The translations under genes and the position numbers were made by a program. Below are positions 3,369-14,588 of a DNA stretch of 64,000 bases, piece by piece. Positions within the stretch are counted from its first letter, which is position 1; each line of letters starts with the position of its first letter. Under the pieces are notes generated by a model that saw only the letters and a program-made list of their open reading frames with translations, was not told where the DNA came from and did no database searches. The DNA is from an uncultured Bacteroidales bacterium (lineage in GTDB: Bacteria > Bacteroidota > Bacteroidia > Bacteroidales > Paludibacteraceae), in NCBI GenBank assembly GCA_903911085.1, contig CAIWCC010000141.1, forward strand, positions 1 to 64,000, read 5' to 3'.

Positions 3369-3578
3369 AATTCTATGTTTTAGCTCACAAATATATGAAA
3401 TACGGCTCAATTTTCATAGCATATGAGCTTTATTTTTTTTATAATGAGCCATAACGACCGATACTTTGGGCATTTGGCGGTTTGCGTGAATATTCACAGT
3501 CGCACTGCGACAAGGTGAATTGCAAATCAGCGCAGCTAATGCGGGAGCAAAACCAGCTGAATGCACGTCAACCAGCCC

Positions 3579-3653
3579 CCTGCTAGCGCGGGTTTGCAAC
3601 CCGTGCTTTTCCTTATCTTTTATTGGCACAGATTACAAATCTGCGCCAGCGGG
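3579..3653. repeat. 75-bp two-hairpin repeat, copy 1
   Basis: The unit runs from cctgctagcgcggg to gcgccagcggg and is 75 bp in all three copies (also 5085-5159 and 6577-6651), in the same orientation. Hairpin 1 is gcgcgggtt-tgc-aacccgtgc. Hairpin 2 is ggcacagatt-acaa-atctgcgcc. Both stems tolerate a G:U pair. This copy has attac where the others have attgc, which creates the stop codon of the minus-strand gene 3633-4046. The stretch 3414-3578 beside it holds only weak repeat-like sequence. Confidence 0.85.
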
Positions 3654-4046
3654 TGTTTTGTCATCAATAATTAACTTTCCTTTTTTGTTTGTCAGAACTG
3701 GTAAAAGGGTTTTTAATTCGGCAAATTCCTTTTCAGTCGGTTGAATTGAAATTTCAATAATTTCTGTTGGAAACTTCAAAACTAAAAATTGTCTTGATAA
3801 TTCCAATTCAAAATCGTCAAAGTCACCAAATAGATTTTCGTCATGAGTTTCATAGTATGAATTCCCAGATTCGTAATCATCTTCCGAGTAAGAACGTTGT
3901 ATAAGTAAATACTTTTCAGTTGACTCCATTGTCTCGTTAATGGATATTTTATCAGATTCAGAACCACTTTCTGCATTTTCAGTAAAAAGAATTTGACACC
4001 CAAAATCTTCATCGTTAATTGATATTTCTTTACAGTTAAATTTCAT
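3633..4046 (-). CDS. Hypothetical acidic protein ending inside a repeat
   Basis: This 137-residue protein is of unknown function. I choose the ATG at 4046 (MKFNCKEISI) because ggagga lies 10 bases upstream, inside the last codons of the preceding gene, and the longer version would overlap that gene by 29 bases. The protein is rich in Glu, Asp and Ser, with alternating strands such as FLVLKFPTEIIEISIQP. It has no signal peptide or membrane segment. The last residues, TPAGADL plus the stop, are encoded by repeat copy 1, so the natural C-terminus may have been lost. It is co-transcribed with the NucS-like/DUF5655 gene, 7 bases apart. A partner or immunity role is conceivable but not shown. Confidence 0.55.
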   Translation of the reverse strand: MKFNCKEISINDEDFGCQILFTENAESGSESDKISINETMESTEKYLLIQRSYSEDDYESGNSYYETHDENLFGDFDDFELELSRQFLVLKFPTEIIEISIQPTEKEFAELKTLLPVLTNKKGKLIIDDKTPAGADL

Positions 4047-5057: not shown

Positions 5058-5083
5058 ACGACCAAGTCTGCGAACTCAAATTC
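5058..5083. repeat. 26-bp repeat shared with 7288-7313
   Basis: The segment begins acgaccaagtctgcgaactc and matches 7288-7313 at 24 of 26 positions in the same orientation. Both copies lie just upstream (minus-strand sense) of a gene start, next to a hairpin repeat at this copy. They look like pieces of a larger dispersed element. Confidence 0.6.
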
Positions 5084-5363
5084 TCCTGATAGCGCGGGTT
5101 TGCAACCCGTGCTTTTCTTTATATATTATTGGCACAGATTGCAAATCTGCGCCAGCGGGGGATAAGGTTTGCCAGTCGTAGGTTTCTGCATTGGGTAGTT
5201 CTTCGCCCTCTGCATTATTAAGTTTTGGAAAAGGTAACCCTTTATTGTAGTGCGGTTTATTGAGTTCATCTACCATTTTAAGGAACAGCAAATAGGTAAA
5301 TTGCTTTAAATAATCGCCATAACCCACGCCATCATCTCTTAATACATTGGCGAAATTCCACAC
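5076..5363 (-). pseudogene. hsdM: Truncated type I restriction methylase subunit (hsdM fragment)
   Basis: The N-terminal 65 or so residues match HsdM: VWNFANVLRDDGVGYGDY, then LTYLLFLKM-like QFTYLLFLKMVDELN. The frame then runs into repeat copy 2 (SPAGADLQSVP and on) and stops. A full HsdM has roughly 500 residues, and the SAM-binding and NPPF motifs are absent. No ATG is available: the only start in the conserved part is a GTG at 5363, while the frame is open back to 5399 and overlaps the RhuM gene end. The rest of hsdM, and any hsdS or hsdR, is missing from the following sequence. This is a dead remnant of a type I system. Confidence 0.8.
5085..5159. repeat. 75-bp two-hairpin repeat, copy 2
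   Basis: This copy is nearly identical to copy 3 and has the full hairpin 1 (gcgcgggtttgcaacccgtgc) and hairpin 2. It sits exactly at the point where HsdM similarity ends. Read on the minus strand it encodes PAGADLQSVP and KHGLQTRA, a peptide that commonly marks this repeat type in Bacteroidota proteins. Confidence 0.85.
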
Positions 5364-6420: not shown

Positions 6421-6576
6421 GTTTTTTTGCTTTTCGTTTTAGTGGTTACTTTGTTTCGAGACGCAATGCCTTGCGTGTTTACCTTCTCGGTTTTATTTTT
6501 TTGAGCAATACGCTTGCTGGCTCGTGATCGGCTGCTACTTTGAATTCCCCCGTTCCCCCGTAGCGTACCACACTCT

Positions 6577-6651
6577 CCTGCTAGCGCGGGTTTGCAACCC
6601 GTGCTTTTCTTTATATATTATTGGCACAGATTGCAAATCTGCGCCAGCGGG
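6577..6651. repeat. 75-bp two-hairpin repeat, copy 3
   Basis: This copy is intact and nearly identical to copy 2, between the end of the 6675-7259 gene and the start of rhuM. It may act as a terminator-like structure here. The remaining DNA of 6421-6674 shows no gene. Confidence 0.85.
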
Positions 6652-6674
6652 GGGCGTGTTATGCACTGTAAATT

Positions 6675-7601: not shown

Positions 7602-10600
7602 CTATTCCCCCACTCCCACTTCCGTCAACCCATACAATTCATACACCAGCATATCAATTTTCTTGTCGGTGGTGTCAATTTGTTTTTTTATTTCGAGCAC
7701 TTTTGTTTGTTCGGCTGTGAAGTAATCTTCCCATTCTGCTTCCTGAGGCAGAGTGAGTTTCACTTTTTTCTTGCCGAGTTCTGCTACAAACTCTTTATAA
7801 GTGAGCGAATACCAGTTTTGAAGTTTGCCTGGCAACTCTTCCAAATCAAACTTCCGCTGAAGCATGCGCTGGAATTTCCCAACAATGGGTTGCAACTCAT
7901 TGTTGAAGGCAATCCTGTCGCGGGCAAACTGTTCCAGCAAACTTATCTGTTCTGCATTTGCCTGTGGTACTGGGAAATGCTCAAAATATACTTTGCTAAT
8001 TTCACGCGTTCCGCCCTGCAATTCGGGACAGTTGTACCAAATCCAAAGTTTGGATAATGATGAGTTAAACACTGCTGTAAGATATAGCAATGATACGGAG
8101 CTGTCTAATGCTGTTAGAATAAAACATTTCTGATTTCCCAACATTCCGCTTTCGTCGTACATAAACGGAAAAACAGAAGTCATATTTGGATAAATGATTT
8201 TGGGCTTGGCAAATTCCTTATAATACCCTATACTATCCTGAGTTTCAAACCACTTACCACTAGTCTTTTTACGTGCCCCATTAACTCCTGTTTGGTTTAA
8301 GCGATCAAATCCAAACGATAATAAGTGTTCTTTTATAGCAGGATAATCATCAATGTCTAGTTTCAATGCTGGGAAAGTTCCAATTAGATATTCAAAATCT
8401 GTTATTTCATAAGCAGTTATATCTCTACCCCGCACCATTGGTTTAATAATTTCTTCGCTTTTGGGGTCGGAGGCTATTAATTGTTGTTTGGTTGCTTCGT
8501 TGATATAAAATGCATCGTTATAGCCTGTCAGAATTCCTCGATATATTGATACGGCCAAATTTTTCAATTCCGTACCATTAAGTTTCATTTTATTCAGTTT
8601 TACAGCATCTTCGTAGGGTTGAATGCTCCATTCGCTATCCGAAAAATTGTCCGATGGATAATCGTAAGTATTATTCTGTACCTCGCTCAGGAAATCACCA
8701 TTATAGGTTTTCTGATTTAGCGATAGTACTTTTACTTTCTCTGGCTTATTAATTTTTTGTGTTACAAAAATACATACATAAGTTGTGGCTTCCTGAAAAA
8801 ACTGTATATCGCCAAAGTTCAATATTTGTTGCAATCCAGTGCCAGACAGAAACTTACGCAATGGCTTACCATAAGCTACCAACATCCACTTATTGGGCAT
8901 AATAAACGACTGAATACCACCTTTTTTAAGTAGTTTATAACCCCTTTCGGTAAAAAGACAATATAGGTCGGCTCCTTTTTCGTAGGTCTCGAACCCACAG
9001 CTTTTCAGTATTTCGCTCATCTCACCCATAGTTTGCAACTGTACATACGGCGGATTACCTATTACCACATCAAACCCACCTTTGTATTCGGTGCGGAAAG
9101 CGACGAGGGGAGAAACGGTTCGGGGAAAGTCGAGGGGAGAACCGAGAGGAGAACCGACGAGGGGAAAGACAAGGGGGCATGCCCCCTTGTTCGATGCTCC
9201 CTCGGTAGATGTCCCCTCGGTAGATAGTTCGGGCAGCCCATGTTTCACACGGTTGTTTCGGATATAGTTTATCGTATTCTGCAGTTGCTCGTCGCTGGTT
9301 ATTTCTTTACAACCGAACTTCTGCGTCCATAGTGCCGTCTGTGTTTCTCCTCTTTCTCCTCTACCGGTAGAGGACGAGGGGGAAACCGACGAGGAGGTAT
9401 CTGACAAGGGGGCATGCCCCCTTGTTGTCCGTCCCATTGCCACATTTACCGCACGCGCCGACATCGACTTTATTTTTCCTACAATGGAAGATAATTCTTT
9501 TTCGTCACAAACCAACGCAATATGTAAATGGTCACCACAGACATTGTAGGCAAGCACATTAAGTTTGTCATTCTCTACAATTTCGGCAATGGTTTTGGTA
9601 ACAATCACCTCTTCCTTTCCCGATAACCAAACCGGTTCACCAAGTTTTACATAGTTATCGAACATTCGTTGCGAGTATCTCGAATTATGTGTGGCAGTGG
9701 TAACATGCCAAGCTTTTTTCTCTTTTCGGCGAAATACCTGCGGAAACTCAACCTGCCAATTAAACGCCTTTTCACCCGCAACTGCTGGGTTATCAATTAG
9801 CGAGTTACCACACTTAATATTATTGTTGAGGTCGTTCAGTTTGCGGTTGGGTTGTGCAGTACGCAGCCACAACGAGAGTTTAGCTATTTCTACACTTTCC
9901 TCGTTAATATCCACCCCGAAAAGATTGTTTTCCAGAATACTTTTCTCTACATCGCTCAATACCAAAGCGTCACCAAAAAGTTTTGCTTGCAATTCGTCGA
10001 TAAATCGATGTTCACGAATCAAAAAATCCAATGCCTCTACCAAAAATGCACCCGACCCACATGCCGGATCGCATATTGTAATATGCAATAGCCACTCACG
10101 GTAAGCAGTTAATTTTTCGAGCAATGGTTTTCTACTTTCGTTGAGTGCTTTTATTTCTACCTTCGACAACTTACCTTCTTTGACATTTAGAGTATAATCT
10201 TCCTCATTTATCCCCAGTTCGGTTCGCTTTTCGGAGCAAAGTTTTCCTACAGTATTGTCCACTATATACTTAGTAGTGAATTTTGGAGTATAAAACACAC
10301 CATCCTTTTTGCGTTTGGTGGTATTTTTATCCACCTTTTCGCCACTAAGCTGTGCATTTATTTCGTCGAGTTCATTCAGCGAATTTTCGAATATATGACC
10401 CAGTATATTTACATCCACTTCGCTGGCAAAATCATATTCCGATAATTTCAGTGTATGACGGTACAACAATTCATCGTCAATTATTACAGCATCTAATACA
10501 TCATCAAGCTTAAACAATCCTCCATTGTAAGCAAACACATCGTGATATTTTCCTTTATGGCCAGAATTCAAGTATACAAAATACATTTTAAACCGATTGT

Positions 10601-11444
10601 AAAGCGGAGCATAAGCATCCATATCTTTCAATTCATTCCATTGGTTCAGAATGGCACGCACCGAATTGGGTGGCAACAAATGACGGTCTTCAGCAAAAAA
10701 CAGGAACAAAAAACGGTCGAGGAGTTTTTGCGATTTTTTAAATAGCAATAGCGCGTCCAAATTTGGGTTGAGTGCTACTAGATTCTGGTGCAATTCGCGT
10801 TTGAATAACGAATAATCCTTGTATAGCTTTTTGGTAATGGTATCTTCTTCGCTCAACGAAGCATTTTTTATCTTTTTGGGTAGGTCGGCAGCAATACTTT
10901 CGTAAGACAAGCATATCCAGAGTAATTCAAACTCTTTTTCGGTAAGTGTAAACAGATTAAATTCTATATATTCGATGGCATTGTCGATATAGAATCGAAG
11001 TTTTTCGAAATTGGAAATAATAACATAAGTACACTCGGGCTGGTTGTTTTTATAGCCAAATGCTTGTGCCTCTATTTTATCTAAATCTGTGGTGCTGGTC
11101 CCTTTTAGTTCTATAACAGCTTTTATCTTTTGCAAGGGGGCATGCCCCCTTGTCGAGAAAGAAGATATAACTATAGCGCCATCGGCTTTTTTACTATCCT
11201 TTACGTTTTTATATTCAGTAGTAAGGTTAAAATCTTGGTTGGGGTTTAGCGTATAGCCTAGAACTTCTACAAACAAATCGCGAAAAAAACCTTCTTGATA
11301 TTGCTCTTCCTTACTGGCACGGATATTTTGTTGAACTAGCGGATTATGAAAATGTGCTTTGAATTGGCTGTAAGCTAATTGAATTTTTTGTGCATCAATT
11401 ACCTGCAAATATTTATTGAGTACAGTACTTTGATAAAATCCCAT
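7602..11444 (-). CDS. Eco57I-type restriction-methylase with an embedded Y1 transposase domain
   Basis: This 1280-residue single-chain restriction-modification enzyme starts with a PD-(D/E)XK nuclease region (ADGAIVI then VIELKG, near 87-115). A helical linker follows, then GVFYTPKFTTKYIV near 395. Methylase motif I, DPACGSGAFL, is at about 459 and motif IV, NPPY, at about 796. The TaqI-like target-recognition part runs from about 900 to 1150. In relatives motifs I and IV are much closer. Here about 210 extra residues (573-787) separate EFPQVF from GGFDVVIGNPPY and contain a complete HUH/Y1 domain. The frame is open throughout. Three copies of one palindrome lie in the gene. Whether restriction, transposition or both survive is unknown. 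Confidence 0.85.
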   Translation of the reverse strand: MGFYQSTVLNKYLQVIDAQKIQLAYSQFKAHFHNPLVQQNIRASKEEQYQEGFFRDLFVEVLGYTLNPNQDFNLTTEYKNVKDSKKADGAIVISSFSTRGHAPLQKIKAVIELKGTSTTDLDKIEAQAFGYKNNQPECTYVIISNFEKLRFYIDNAIEYIEFNLFTLTEKEFELLWICLSYESIAADLPKKIKNASLSEEDTITKKLYKDYSLFKRELHQNLVALNPNLDALLLFKKSQKLLDRFLFLFFAEDRHLLPPNSVRAILNQWNELKDMDAYAPLYNRFKMYFVYLNSGHKGKYHDVFAYNGGLFKLDDVLDAVIIDDELLYRHTLKLSEYDFASEVDVNILGHIFENSLNELDEINAQLSGEKVDKNTTKRKKDGVFYTPKFTTKYIVDNTVGKLCSEKRTELGINEEDYTLNVKEGKLSKVEIKALNESRKPLLEKLTAYREWLLHITICDPACGSGAFLVEALDFLIREHRFIDELQAKLFGDALVLSDVEKSILENNLFGVDINEESVEIAKLSLWLRTAQPNRKLNDLNNNIKCGNSLIDNPAVAGEKAFNWQVEFPQVFRRKEKKAWHVTTATHNSRYSQRMFDNYVKLGEPVWLSGKEEVIVTKTIAEIVENDKLNVLAYNVCGDHLHIALVCDEKELSSIVGKIKSMSARAVNVAMGRTTRGHAPLSDTSSSVSPSSSTGRGERGETQTALWTQKFGCKEITSDEQLQNTINYIRNNRVKHGLPELSTEGTSTEGASNKGACPLVFPLVGSPLGSPLDFPRTVSPLVAFRTEYKGGFDVVIGNPPYVQLQTMGEMSEILKSCGFETYEKGADLYCLFTERGYKLLKKGGIQSFIMPNKWMLVAYGKPLRKFLSGTGLQQILNFGDIQFFQEATTYVCIFVTQKINKPEKVKVLSLNQKTYNGDFLSEVQNNTYDYPSDNFSDSEWSIQPYEDAVKLNKMKLNGTELKNLAVSIYRGILTGYNDAFYINEATKQQLIASDPKSEEIIKPMVRGRDITAYEITDFEYLIGTFPALKLDIDDYPAIKEHLLSFGFDRLNQTGVNGARKKTSGKWFETQDSIGYYKEFAKPKIIYPNMTSVFPFMYDESGMLGNQKCFILTALDSSVSLLYLTAVFNSSLSKLWIWYNCPELQGGTREISKVYFEHFPVPQANAEQISLLEQFARDRIAFNNELQPIVGKFQRMLQRKFDLEELPGKLQNWYSLTYKEFVAELGKKKVKLTLPQEAEWEDYFTAEQTKVLEIKKQIDTTDKKIDMLVYELYGLTEVGVGE
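9169..9190. repeat. REP-like perfect palindrome, copy 1
   Basis: CAAGGGGGCATGCCCCCTTG with one more matching base pair on each side gives 22 bp in all. It is read in frame on the minus strand as NKGACPL, just after the transposase Tyr region. The neighbouring 9085-9165 holds imperfect short repeats of the type cgaggggagaac. Confidence 0.9.
9231..9716 (-). mobile_element. Embedded REP-associated tyrosine transposase (Y1/HUH) domain
   Basis: These are residues about 577-738 of the host protein. The domain opens with WHVTTATHNSRY. It has the HUH metal-binding pair in GDHLHIALV near 635-643. A vWq-type LWTQKFGCKEI follows, then the catalytic Tyr in NTINYIRNNRVKHGL near 727, equivalent to YIxxNPVKAGL of RAYTs. 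Such enzymes nick single-stranded DNA at REP hairpins. The domain has no start or stop of its own. Confidence 0.85.
9404..9425. repeat. REP-like perfect palindrome, copy 2
   Basis: The same 20-base core as copy 1, again with one extra matching pair on each side. It is read as TRGHAPL on the minus strand, inside a low-complexity Ser/Gly loop of the transposase domain. Copies 1 and 2 are centred 235 bp apart and bracket the catalytic Tyr segment. Confidence 0.9.
11133..11152. repeat. REP-like perfect palindrome, copy 3
   Basis: The same 20-base palindrome, read as TRGHAPL in the nuclease domain of the same gene, between the ADGAIVI and VIELKG strands. No further base pairs match outside the 20 bases. 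Confidence 0.9.
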
Positions 11445-11683
11445 GTATCATTTTTTTCAGATAGGTTAATATTAATTTCGCGCTACAAAACTACACAAAA
11501 CATTCGACAATTGGTTATAATTGTTAATCTAATTTTAGTCGAAATTAAAAATTTATTTTTCAATACTTATTGATGGAACAATCAGTCAATTGCGAATATA
11601 AATTTAGCATCTAGTATTATCGTAAAATTGAGTTTCTGTAAAAAAATCATGCTGTATATCTTATCTTTATCACATTGCTAAAT

Positions 11684-12028
11684 AGTGTCTGCTGAAAAAC
11701 TATAATTCTATTGATATTCAATAAAATAGTTATATGTTTTTTGATTAATGTGCATAGTATTTGAAAATAATCGTTCATTTTACTTGTACGTGCATTTCCT
11801 ATTACAATCTAAAAATCCCGAAGGGATTTAATGTGAATAGCCACCAGTGAAACTGGAGGTAAATTACAACGAATAAATTCAGAACCCTGAATGGGTTCAA
11901 TTACTGCATCATATATGTTGAACCCTTTCCGGGTTCTGTTATTTTTGTAAATCATCAACCCCGAATTTCATTCGGGGCTATTCAAATTTAACCACTTTGT
12001 GGTTATTCATAGTTTTTCAGCAGACTCT
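11684..12028. mobile_element. MITE-like hairpin element A (345 bp)
   Basis: The left end agtgtctgctgaaaaactat and the right end atagtttttcagcagactct are inverted repeats matching at 19 of 20 positions. Four bases (aaat) flank both ends, and a longer 13-base direct repeat, ctaaatagtgtct, is found at 11678 and 12027. Inside are at least five short hairpins, among them 11882-11898, 11920-11936 and ccccgaat-ttc-attcgggg at 11959-11977. There is no open frame. It is inverted relative to elements B and C: its reverse complement matches the first 70 bases of C closely. Confidence 0.8.
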
Positions 12029-12226
12029 AAATAGTGTCTATCGATATATTTGAATGTTTAATACTGCATTAGGATTGTTACATAATACATTTATCTCTAA
12101 TTTTGATATAATACTTATACAACATTTATACTATATTTATTTATAACTTATCTGAAACATATCTATAGAGAAAAGACTTATATAAATAATTAATATGATA
12201 TGTAATTAGATTACAGAAAAATTTGC

Positions 12227-12234
12227 TATTTTTG
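12227..12234 (+). promoter_or_regulatory. Bacteroidota-type -7 element TATTTTTG
   Basis: This fits TAnnTTTG and lies in the plus orientation between elements A and B. It could be the promoter of the gene at 12757, with element B inserted in the leader. No clear -33 element was checked beyond AT-richness. The gap 11445-12756 otherwise contains only elements A and B and AT-rich DNA. Confidence 0.35.
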
Positions 12235-12354
12235 TATCCTATTTTTATTATACACATAGCATAACACTTTGCAAATGCGTTTTTGTGCATCCCTATAGCA
12301 AATAACGATTTAGTAATATTGAAATAATGGTTATAGCAATAGTAGAGTTATATT

Positions 12355-12695
12355 AGGATCAGCTGAAAAACTCCAGGGGAGTTACCTGTGCATAACCCCC
12401 AAATTTATTTGGGGGATGTTAGAGTAATACGAACTTAACTCCAGAGGAGTTAACCTTTGATTATCTGACATTTGCGTATATTGGAGAACTCCTCTGGAGT
12501 TCAATTTAGTTTTTTTATTTTACCCCCAAATAAATTTTGGGGTTATGCATAGGCTATCCCTACGGGATTTTAAAACTTTAACCGAAAGATTAGTGCATGA
12601 TATTTGAATATAAACGTTCAAATACCTTGCACAAATCAATTTAATTATTCTAATCATTTGTTAATCAGCAATATTACTGTTTTTCAGCAGACCCT
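12355..12695. mobile_element. MITE-like hairpin element B (341 bp)
   Basis: The left end is aggatcagctgaaaaac and the right end gtttttcagcagaccct, with atatt flanking both sides as a likely target duplication. Internal hairpins include aactccaggggagtt, cccccaaatttatttggggg, aactccagaggagtt (12437-12451) and aactcctctggagtt. A subterminal near-palindrome around 12595-12645 (tgcatgatatttgaa... ttgcac) is shared with A in opposite orientation. Confidence 0.8.
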
Positions 12696-12756
12696 ATATT
12701 AAACCCATTGAGCAAAAAAACAGGAAACGTTATCTAATTAAATATCAAACATATAA

Positions 12757-13566
12757 ATGGCAATAGTAAAAGGACCAATAGTATTTACGGGCAGTTTTGG
12801 CAATGCAAGTTTTTACACGCGACGCGGAAGCGATAAAGTGATAGTGCGCACTAAAGGCGGCGCATCGAAAGAAAAGATTAAATCGTCGCCAAAATTTGCA
12901 GGATTACGATTGCAGCAAAAGGAATGGAAAGGATGTACGGGTTTTGCATCTATATTGCGCTATGCTTTTGGTGGTTTGCACCGATTGGCGGATTATAACT
13001 TAACACCAGTTTTGAATGGATTTGCTAAAAACCTGCAAAAAACGGATATTGTAAATGAAATTGGAAAAAGGGATATTTGCCTTTCGGGATTGCAATACAC
13101 GCTCGAAAATTTTAATTTCAACAGACAATATCCATTTAATACTGTGTTGCGGGTATCTGTGCATGGAAATATAGACAGAGAAACAGGCATGGCTTCGGTA
13201 CAAGTGCCACGCATCAATACCGAAATGGATGTGCAAAATGTGCAACGCCTCCCCTACTTCCGACTAATAGTAGCTTTGGGTGTGGTGTCGGATGTAAAAT
13301 GGGATGAAGTAGGAAGTGAATTCAAAGCCGTAGTGCCTGAGGTACATGGCATAAGCATAGTAAATACTGGCAATTGGCTCCCAGCAGAAAACGTACTTAT
13401 TCCTCAAACAATAACAGTTCAATTAGATGAATCTTCACTACAACAAATCACCAGCGACTGTACATTGGTGTTGAGTATGGCTATCGAATTCGGGAAAGTC
13501 GGTTTTACAGGTGCTCCACAAGAAGTTAAGTATGCAGGATGTGGAAGGGTAGTAAAAGTGGCGTGA
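12757..13566 (+). CDS. Conserved Bacteroidota protein of unknown function
   Basis: This 269-residue protein begins MAIVKGPIVFTGSFGNASFY, then TRRGSDKVIVRTKGGASKEK. I know this N-terminal pattern from a multi-copy family in Bacteroidota genomes, but no function is assigned to it. It has no signal peptide, membrane segment or known catalytic motif. The second half is rich in beta strands (FRLIVALGVVSDV, LVLSMAIEFGKVGFTG), which may suggest a structural or phage-tail-like fold, but this is inference. The N-terminus loosely recalls DUF6266 proteins. It follows element B by 61 bases and is convergent with the SDR gene. Confidence 0.75.
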   Translation: MAIVKGPIVFTGSFGNASFYTRRGSDKVIVRTKGGASKEKIKSSPKFAGLRLQQKEWKGCTGFASILRYAFGGLHRLADYNLTPVLNGFAKNLQKTDIVNEIGKRDICLSGLQYTLENFNFNRQYPFNTVLRVSVHGNIDRETGMASVQVPRINTEMDVQNVQRLPYFRLIVALGVVSDVKWDEVGSEFKAVVPEVHGISIVNTGNWLPAENVLIPQTITVQLDESSLQQITSDCTLVLSMAIEFGKVGFTGAPQEVKYAGCGRVVKVA

Positions 13567-13651: not shown

Positions 13652-13677
13652 CAACAAGGGGTTGCAACCCCTTGTTG
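13652..13677. terminator. Perfect 26-bp palindrome between convergent genes
   Basis: The core CAAGGGGTTGCAACCCCTTG, extended by three matching pairs on each side, lies between the end of the 12757 gene and the end of the SDR gene. It is a likely bidirectional terminator. It has the same 20-base length and the same outer seven bases as the palindrome in the restriction gene, with a different centre. Confidence 0.65.
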
Positions 13678-13721: not shown

Positions 13722-14588
13722 TTATTTTTTTGATAATGCAACCACCATTTCCCAAATAGTTTTTCTATTTTCGATATTTAAAACAGCAGTAGGCCAAGGT
13801 GTTTGCTTCACTTTTTTATCAAAATACAATTGAGTTTTATCTTCCACGTTTGGCGATGAAGCCAAAAATACTGATGATCTTGACGCTTTTTCAGCCGATT
13901 TTCCGTTATCAGGGCGGACAAAGTATTTGAATATTGGAAATAACAAACGAAATGGAAAAGGTAACATTTCTGCTGTAACACCTTGAGTCATATTAGTGCT
14001 TGCTTGCCCTGGATAACAAACATTTAAGGTAATTTTCTGTCCTTTAAATCGCTCAGCATATTCATACATCATTGCCATCATAACTAGCTTTGATTGTGAA
14101 TAATAATTTAAACCATTAAAGTATTTTTGGGCTTGAAGATTGTCCATTTCGATTTCTTTTGGCAAATCCCCACCCATTAAAGTAATAATTCTAGGCGAAG
14201 TACTTTTTTGCAATAAAGGCAATAGCAACGTTATTAACTTAAAGGGAGCAAGTACATTGGTTGCAAAGTTCATTTCTACACCTTCTGGGTTCAACTTTCG
14301 TTCGGAAGCTGCCAATCCCGCATTATTTATGAGTACATCAAGATGATCGAATTTGGTTTCGAACTGCTTTACAAGCTCAGTAATTCCAGCTGAAAACGAT
14401 ATATCAGCCAGAAGCAGTTCCACTTTAGGGTTACCTGTTTGTTGTTTTATTTCTGTTAATGCTGCTTCGCCGCTTTGTTTGTTTCGACCTGTAATAATAA
14501 CTGTAGCGCCCATTTTGGCTAACGAGATAGCAGTTTGTTTACCAATTCCACTAGTAGCACCAGTGATAAGCACAATTTTATTTTTCAT
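13722..14588 (-). CDS. Short-chain dehydrogenase/reductase (SDR)
   Basis: This 288-residue NAD(P)-dependent oxidoreductase has a Rossmann fold. The cofactor loop is TGATSGIG (residues 8-15), with TGRNK after strand 2, which favours NADP(H). LINNAG is near 87-92 and the catalytic YxxxK is Y163-SQS-K167. The length and the C-terminal region resemble retinol dehydrogenase/protochlorophyllide reductase-like SDRs, whose substrates vary widely, so none is named here. Its ATG lies inside the end of the TMEM175-like gene (11-base overlap), so translation is coupled and the two are one transcript. Confidence 0.9.
   Translation of the reverse strand: MKNKIVLITGATSGIGKQTAISLAKMGATVIITGRNKQSGEAALTEIKQQTGNPKVELLLADISFSAGITELVKQFETKFDHLDVLINNAGLAASERKLNPEGVEMNFATNVLAPFKLITLLLPLLQKSTSPRIITLMGGDLPKEIEMDNLQAQKYFNGLNYYSQSKLVMMAMMYEYAERFKGQKITLNVCYPGQASTNMTQGVTAEMLPFPFRLLFPIFKYFVRPDNGKSAEKASRSSVFLASSPNVEDKTQLYFDKKVKQTPWPTAVLNIENRKTIWEMVVALSKK

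Follow-up and report, generated by a model that had tools for sequence, protein, structure and literature searches.

A REP-associated tyrosine transposase domain and in-frame palindromes in a predicted Type IIG restriction-methyltransferase gene of an uncultured Bacteroidales bacterium

The composite gene and its embedded domain

The subject of this study is a single gene (7602..11444, minus strand) located in a stretch of 64,000 nucleotides, hereafter the window, from contig CAIWCC010000141.1 of an uncultured Bacteroidales bacterium (assembly GCA_903911085.1). As judged from its translation and from matches to Pfam, NCBIfam and PADLOC, this gene encodes a predicted Type IIG restriction-methyltransferase of 1280 amino acids in which a domain of the REP-associated tyrosine transposase type (RAYT; REP, repetitive extragenic palindrome) is embedded. 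The reading frame is unbroken and contains no internal stop codon. Pfam detects in its product the Eco57I family in two stretches, TaqI_C and, at residues 612-668, Y1_Tnp, and the PADLOC model for Type IIG restriction enzyme-methyltransferases (PDLC03609) matches with 1011.9 bits, again in two stretches, the best of which aligns residues 1-574 with positions 1-556 of the model.

The N half of the host enzyme (residues 1-571; 9732..11444, minus strand) ends with the sequence EFPQVF and comprises a putative nuclease region, a helical part and methylase motif I, DPACGSGAF (10044-10070, minus strand). The nuclease region is assigned by position and motif only, namely a D..ExK-like motif seen by eye at about residues 88-114 and a weak Pfam match to MmeI_N (E 0.012). 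There follows the RAYT cassette (residues 572-789; 9078..9731, minus strand), supported by Pfam, NCBIfam, junction comparison and fold search. The conserved right anchor GFDVVIGNPPY (9045..9077, minus strand) starts at residue 790 and includes methylase motif IV (GNPPY); with it begins the C half (7605..9077, minus strand), which carries the target recognition domain (TaqI_C, 7968-8288). Motifs I and IV are both invariant across an alignment of 53 rows (A2). An AlphaFold2 model of residues 332-1169 (mean predicted local distance difference test score, pLDDT, 78; predicted template-modelling score 0.56) has matches that include CamA, M.BseCI, BrxX, BpuSI, MmeI and TaqI. Among its segments with a pLDDT below 50 are model residues 344-370 and 412-443, corresponding to window residues 675-701 and 743-774, and it is there that the two palindrome-coded stretches of the cassette, described below, are located.

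The RAYT domain possesses neither a start nor a stop codon of its own and is translated as a domain of the host protein. Its HUH motif, DHLH (residues 638-641; 9522..9533, minus strand), and its single catalytic tyrosine, Tyr727 within NYIRNNRVKH (9264..9266, minus strand), are invariant in alignments A1, A2 and A3 (the last with 51 rows). The NCBIfam model REP_Tyr_transpos matches residues 610-737 with 50.2 bits, and 54.3 bits are reached when the domain is searched alone, both values lying under the curated equivalog cut-off of 80; all 51 members of A3 match this NCBIfam family at E-values up to 0.01. A search of the Protein Data Bank (PDB) with the domain sequence yielded nothing credible, and relatives surfaced by fold search instead: the best PDB match of an AlphaFold2 model of the domain (mean pLDDT 81) was in Foldseek the Escherichia coli TnpA-REP protein bound to its REP hairpin (4ER8, E 1.1e-5), a match of moderate quality (TM-scores 0.41 and 0.53, root mean square deviation 8.2). 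An original prediction, made from the DNA letters and a list of reading frames, had described an unbroken frame of 1280 residues holding two enzymes, the second a transposase complete with HUH and Tyr motifs, and had suggested structure modelling as a check. Frame and domain are both borne out by the data given above.

Recurrence of the junction and turnover of the cassette

Matches to the domain alone occur in 8 of the 200 family genomes searched, in 28 of 344 genomes from the order and in 8 of 395 from the phylum, each count including the window's own genome. They lie mostly within frames of more than 1000 codons; of the eight phylum-level matches, two are short frames with little identity. 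Of 49 stretches that were fetched, 36 share the junction with the window: their N half stops at an identical position and the RAYT domain follows. All 37 genes (window included) possess the HUH and Tyr motifs. Of the 13 stretches set aside, L063 and L064 belong to a different methylase family, L107 has no match and the others are standalone or partial. A species-level scan, which covered one genome for each species and from which the best 80 of 99 stretches were analyzed, is biased towards embedded forms because it relied on a single peptide pattern taken from embedded domains. In this set, 77 of the 80 loci share the junction, two others are standalone and one is a relic (L223); the HUH motif is present in 80/80 and the Tyr motif in 77/80, and in the three without it the frame is truncated, either at a contig end or by a stretch of N. 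Among the carriers of the arrangement are three cultured strains, Tangfeifania diversioriginum DSM 27063, Flavobacterium psychrotolerans RB1R5 and Flavobacterium restrictum LB1R34. An assembly join at the window junction is very unlikely, because the junction recurs in 36 other genes and in these 77 of 80 loci.

After removal of 19 duplicates plus L223, L254 and L258, the species scan contributed a replicate set of 58 further genes, which retains some near copies (L240/L243/L244 and L250/L251). The total thus amounts to 95 distinct genes with the domain at this junction, window included, although several of these frames are truncated where a contig ends or interrupted at other places (e.g., L065, L079, L095). 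A plasmid search gave no match carrying the insert. Four phage records match with the whole enzyme at 32-35% identity, and matches to PHROGs were uninformative.

Relatives without the transposase were used for comparison; 40 were fetched and 39 parsed, one (L135) being dropped as its junction pattern was not found. Exactly three residues separate EFPxVF from GFDVVIGNPPY in 24 of these 39 proteins, and the other 15 carry either a helical insert of 66-80 residues (11 proteins) or a short insert of 41-55 residues (four). The helical insert stands in the place of the RAYT domain in L108-L110, L116, L118, L134, L140, L142-L144 and L147, the first three of which are domain-free paralogues from the window's own genome. 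The junction is therefore a cassette site, at which a RAYT domain, a helical insert, a short insert or no insert alternate among close relatives.

We followed the fate of the insert on a quick tree of the N half that comprises 74 rows (35 with RAYT, 24 with no insert, 11 helical, 4 short), has two long branches and leaves out L059 and L080, which were too short. The RAYT label requires 21 changes on this tree, 14 of them forced by strong branches, and shuffled labels require 24.9 (33/500 as low); the four states together require 29 changes versus 33.0 when shuffled (6/200 as low). Insert states hence cluster slightly on the N-half tree and are exchanged nearly as fast as chance labels would be. 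The helical label alone accounts for 9 changes in 11 rows, and the transposase is therefore not required for turnover of the cassette. For the same reason we did not take these state changes to prove transposition.

N-half and C-half identity are unrelated: the correlation is 0.055 for the 2211 pairs that 67 genes form and 0.13 for 630 pairs of insertless genes, so that the two halves are exchanged independently of each other. Identity of the RAYT domain shows a weak relation to the N half (0.26) and none to the C half (-0.01) over 465 RAYT pairs. Cassette turnover is thereby shown to be largely independent of both flanks. Two claims of the original prediction can be judged from these data: the halves of the methylase are indeed adjacent in most relatives, a different insert occupying the site in the remainder, and the arrangement is recurrent, with the same junction in many lineages. 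The proposal that the domain is a hitch-hiker agrees with how it behaves. The further argument that recurrence would imply selection is weakened, because recombination between conserved flanks can spread any cassette, and the helical insert flips about as readily.

In several pairs of genes the RAYT domain is far more alike than the enzyme that carries it. Synonymous divergence (dS), estimated with a method that saturates at high distance, is 0.44 in the RAYT domain versus 2.09 in the N half for L078/L079, two genes of one genome; the corresponding values are 0.37 versus 2.65 for L073/L083, 0.40 versus 1.44 for L077/L226, and 0.50 versus 2.70 for L072/L225. At the nucleotide level, these four pairs are 84-88% identical in the cassette, 61-75% in the preceding 200 codons, and 40-44% in the second 45-base block after it. 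L066/L077 shows no such excess (dS 0.98 versus 0.97). The ratio of non-synonymous to synonymous divergence (dN/dS) of the RAYT domain, for which the same saturation applies, is 0.056-0.36 in the listed pairs with finite values. At the level of sequence, the domain is shown to be under purifying selection with its catalytic residues conserved, from which it follows that its function is maintained, be it for the host or for the element. As to ends of the IS200/IS605 type, palindromes are internal and scattered, and none lies at the left border in the pairs displayed.

In-frame palindromes and related RAYT genes

The gene in the window contains three copies of one perfect palindrome, ACAAGGGGGCATGCCCCCTTGT, in two reading frames. 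One (9404..9425) lies in the loop between the HUH and Tyr motifs, where it is read from residue 674 as TRGHAPL; a second (9169..9190) follows the Tyr motif and is read in the other frame as NKGACPLV; and a third (20 nt, 11133..11152) is found in the host part at residues 98-104, within the putative nuclease region. These three exact 20-bp palindromes are among seven places of the pattern in the 6.25-Mb genome. The original prediction had not mentioned any palindromes.

With arms of at least 9 bases and a G+C content of at least half as criterion, we found 70 palindromes in the 37 embedded genes of the first set, versus an average of 0.0 over five dinucleotide shuffles of each, and four in the 40 insertless genes, confined to two of them. 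The replicate set yielded 116 palindromes in 58 genes (0.8 expected), with 50 genes positive. Combined, there are 186 palindromes in 82 of 95 genes, 81 of which have them within the cassette and 38 outside of it. They have a REP-like form, ACAAGGGG-N6-CCCCTTGT, and lie in frame in loops of the RAYT domain and of the host enzyme; many different cores occur within the consensus AACAAGGGG-N6-CCCCTTGTC. Two reading frames are common and the third also occurs; the unit is therefore the DNA and not a peptide. The 67 palindromes outside the cassette cluster at a few sites of the host enzyme (mainly about window residues 91-98, 225, 361-375, 423, 551-560 and 1199-1229), and 44 of them add at least five residues relative to insertless rows (median 8), compared with 12% of 1065 random places. 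Of all signs that the domain is or once was an active RAYT, these in-frame palindromes are the strongest.

The palindromes of a given gene are related to the RAYT domain that resides in it. Palindromes outside the cassette agree with those inside the cassette of their own gene at 0.898 of the positions, versus 0.677 after shuffling (14 genes; 0/20,000), and the replicate gave 0.800 versus 0.650 (23 genes; 0/20,000). Across genes, palindrome similarity tracks RAYT identity (Mantel 0.61, 0/5000) and is tied neither to the N half (0.17, 439/5000) nor to the C half (-0.02, 2972/5000). The own-gene test is the cleaner of the two, since the Mantel link is partly built in, most palindromes lying in the cassette. 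At the genome level, the pattern CAAGGGG-N6-CCCCTTG was found in 19 of 30 genomes with an embedded gene, and 38 of its 84 places in those 19 genomes and the window's own genome are inside embedded genes. Among 149 genomes of the order, it occurs in 10 of the 15 with a domain match, two of which (G225, G244) have the standalone domain only, versus 4 of the 134 without.

Besides the embedded form, the domain exists on its own. In L098 and L174 it is a separate gene beside what by eye is a thymidylate-synthase-like gene; L258 is a standalone gene with the exact palindrome upstream, inside and downstream; and L101 is a standalone frame that lacks the Tyr-bearing stretch. In the relic L223, an enzyme-like start (by eye) and the junction are followed by a RAYT domain that retains both HUH and Tyr; most of the methylase is lost, its motif IV stretch remains in another frame, and the RAYT frame is kept. 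Six standalone rows lie among embedded ones on a RAYT tree without a true outgroup and require four changes; three solo RAYTs of the window's own genome are not part of this tree.

The NCBIfam RAYT model was also run against 149 genomes, and among the matches listed, 13 lie in frames of more than 400 codons. Nine of these 13 are of the embedded type described here; the other four (L175-L178) belong, by eye, to a different RAYT subfamily, with NHVH or NHIH and with NNP or QNP after the tyrosine in all four. In L175 and L177, the transposase lies at other positions of Type IIG enzymes, both of which run off their contigs; L176 is a Type I restriction subunit of 881 residues, and its family match ends at residue 616, ahead of the transposase; and in L178 the transposase is located behind a diaminopimelate epimerase. 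Given this second subfamily, in-frame RAYTs in restriction genes seem to have arisen more than once. L175 also contains an 18-base unit repeated five times. A RAYT-like domain is found at the corresponding place of a different methylase in L063 and L064, with tandem THDSTHGS repeats in a loop of L064 and GNLHC replacing GNPPY in L063. In L157, the palindrome stands at the same place in two nearly identical adjacent frames that are nuclease-like by eye.

Elsewhere in the window, a related palindrome of a different core type (CAAGGGGTTGCAACCCCTTG; 13655..13674) lies between frames 12757-13566 and 13722-14588. Another REP-like family is represented by an 85-nt repeat in three copies (3571-3655, 5077-5161 and 6569-6653), the second of which ends a short frame (5076-5363) that by eye resembles the beginning of a Type I methylase subunit. 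Directly upstream of the gene (11678-12697) there are several inverted repeats, 26-41 nt in length, perhaps a worn mobile element. The region 27451-63927 resembles, by eye, a polysaccharide-utilisation region that includes SusC/SusD-like and several lyase-like genes as well as a hybrid sensor.

Interpretation and comparison with known systems

Our data show a fixed junction, preserved catalytic residues, in-frame palindromes in both RAYT domain and host enzyme, and a palindrome type that is tied to the RAYT type. An arrangement that recurs at one exact spot in about 100 related genes looks, therefore, like a mobile element within a defence enzyme. With moderate confidence, we regard an in-frame REPtron that hitch-hikes in a Type IIG restriction gene as the best reading. 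According to this model, the RAYT domain, which occupies the cassette site just before motif IV as a translated part of the host protein, would nick its REP hairpins when the DNA is single-stranded. New REP copies would often land in restriction genes, largely the one that encodes the domain but also others, and would survive wherever a loop can accommodate some eight additional residues. The cassette itself would probably spread between restriction genes mainly by homologous recombination at the conserved flanks, and the element would gain expression and horizontal spread from the defence gene. A bolder version, which we put forward tentatively, envisions a translated transposon that exists only as a host domain, excises from and inserts into coding sites of restriction-modification genes with IS200-like precision, seeds its hairpins through its own and other restriction genes, and travels together with the defence gene as a unit; its nicking might, moreover, control or diversify the restriction gene.

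Several observations weigh against a mobile REPtron of this kind. The helical insert also turns over, so that mobility of the cassette need not involve the RAYT domain. On its left side the transferred piece has no sharp border, because in some of the four pairs given above the end of the N half shows about the same similarity as the cassette (the last few N-half blocks are 73-87% alike in L073/L083 and L078/L079), and there are pairs in which the enzyme is closer than its insert (L080/L083, N half 96% alike and RAYT 80%; L066/L077, 92% and 78%). By our criterion, 13 of the 95 genes have no palindrome; CAAGGGG-N6-CCCCTTG is missing from 11 of the 30 genomes with an embedded gene; and the canonical REP foot is missing, GTAG being present near the 5' side of two of the 186 palindromes and CTAC on the 3' side of two. 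The comparison that speaks for a preference in cis rests on few genes: palindromes occur in 1 of 13 insertless paralogues from co-carrying genomes, and 38 of the 95 embedded genes have them beyond the cassette (p 0.03). Genome G172 has 23 places of the pattern with only 2 in its embedded gene. The palindrome is present in other restriction genes as well: in an insertless paralogue (L145), a further Eco57I/TaqI_C enzyme (L162), a pair of MmeI-type enzymes from a single genome (L165, L166) and one Type ISP enzyme (L152). These cases weaken strict cis action; further palindromes are intergenic or lie in frames that by eye are not restriction genes. Local duplication or gene conversion could, moreover, copy palindromes within a gene.

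Among the competing explanations, the one that survives best, unlikely as we hold it to be, is domestication: the RAYT domain would serve the enzyme, for instance by nicking foreign single strands or through feedback, on binding the REP hairpins of its own gene or transcript, and the palindromes would be its operators. The conserved catalytic residues and the range of dN/dS would be expected of such a module, and the concentration of palindromes in the own gene, together with their presence in other restriction genes, also fits. Against it stand a state with at least 14 changes on branches of strong support, close relatives that manage without a RAYT domain, palindromes at scattered loops, and the relic L223, which keeps the RAYT domain without most of the methylase. 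Somewhat more doubtful still is a passive passenger, an inactive RAYT domain in cassettes that ordinary recombination shuffles, with the palindromes copied along. The site shuffles transposase-free inserts too, and recognition halves are exchanged equally in insertless genes, both of which such a passenger would predict; it does not explain why catalytic residues and purifying selection are maintained and why palindromes in host loops match the resident RAYT. That the RAYT domain cuts palindromes flanking the recognition half and so drives its exchange is highly improbable: palindromes near residues 361-375, 1199-1229 and in the cassette do surround the exchanged part, but N and C halves are equally unlinked in insertless genes, and in the pairs inspected similarity drops right after the GFDVVIGNPPY anchor and not at the palindromes, on which grounds we rejected this driver role. 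An artefact of assembly or annotation can practically be dismissed, for although most of the 80 species-scan records are metagenome assemblies, three cultured isolates and 95 distinct genes share the junction.

If the hitch-hiking REPtron is the correct reading, a transposase is able to persist within a defence enzyme, translated as one of its parts. How REPs spread, and what benefit RAYTs bring to their hosts, is a long-standing open question. Each of the 95 genes carries an enzyme together with its candidate substrates, their types co-varying, and the collection hence provides a ready panel of pairs. In these Type IIG enzymes, the position preceding motif IV is marked as an exchangeable cassette site.

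Inteins are likewise in-frame selfish elements next to a conserved catalytic motif, and in that respect they resemble the element described here; unlike them, the window protein has no splicing domain among the Pfam matches of its full 1280 residues. With TnpA-REP, the RAYTs and the REPtrons (Nunvar 2010, PMC2817692; Quentin 2018, PMC6006769; on REP recognition, PMC8266576), the embedded domain shares the HUH motif and catalytic tyrosine and the association with short palindromes, in keeping with 4ER8 as its best fold match, and the standalone L258 is flanked by such palindromes on either side. Unlike those systems as they are described there, the embedded domain has no gene of its own, is read in frame within a restriction enzyme, and its palindromes lack the GTAG foot. 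The TnpA-Y1 subclass 2.4, equivalent to RAYT group 4 and abundant in Bacteroidetes, carries in-frame REPs generally between the HUH and Tyr motifs (PMC6006769), as does the window gene, with its palindrome from residue 674 between HUH 641 and Tyr 727. It differs in its motifs, NH[IFV]H and YIxNNP, from the DHxH and YIxNNR(xKH) found here, and palindromes in our genes occur in the host enzyme as well; the subclasses tabulated by Quentin (PMC6006769) end in NP, NQ or EQ. That study (Quentin 2018) set aside a few proteins of unexpected length, treating them as fusions or errors of annotation, and its main text contains no words beginning with methyl, restriction or fused. Among the open-licence papers that our searches listed, no title or abstract start describes a RAYT, Y1 or HUH transposase inside a restriction-modification enzyme. 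REPs inside RAYT genes are thus already known, and a RAYT life inside restriction enzymes was not found in the open-licence literature searched.

REPs inside the reading frames of other genes have been reported (PMC3733652); these intragenic REPs and the Rickettsia palindromic elements are likewise inserted in frames and tolerated in loops. In our case, unlike theirs as far as that source describes them, the palindromes match a transposase domain of the same protein. Type IIG restriction-methyltransferases (PDLC03609; PMC3077401) are the same kind of host enzyme, in which the recognition half is freely exchanged. What is found here goes beyond the movement of recognition domains reported in PMC3077401, in that an extra cassette site just before motif IV accommodates alternative inserts, a transposase among them.

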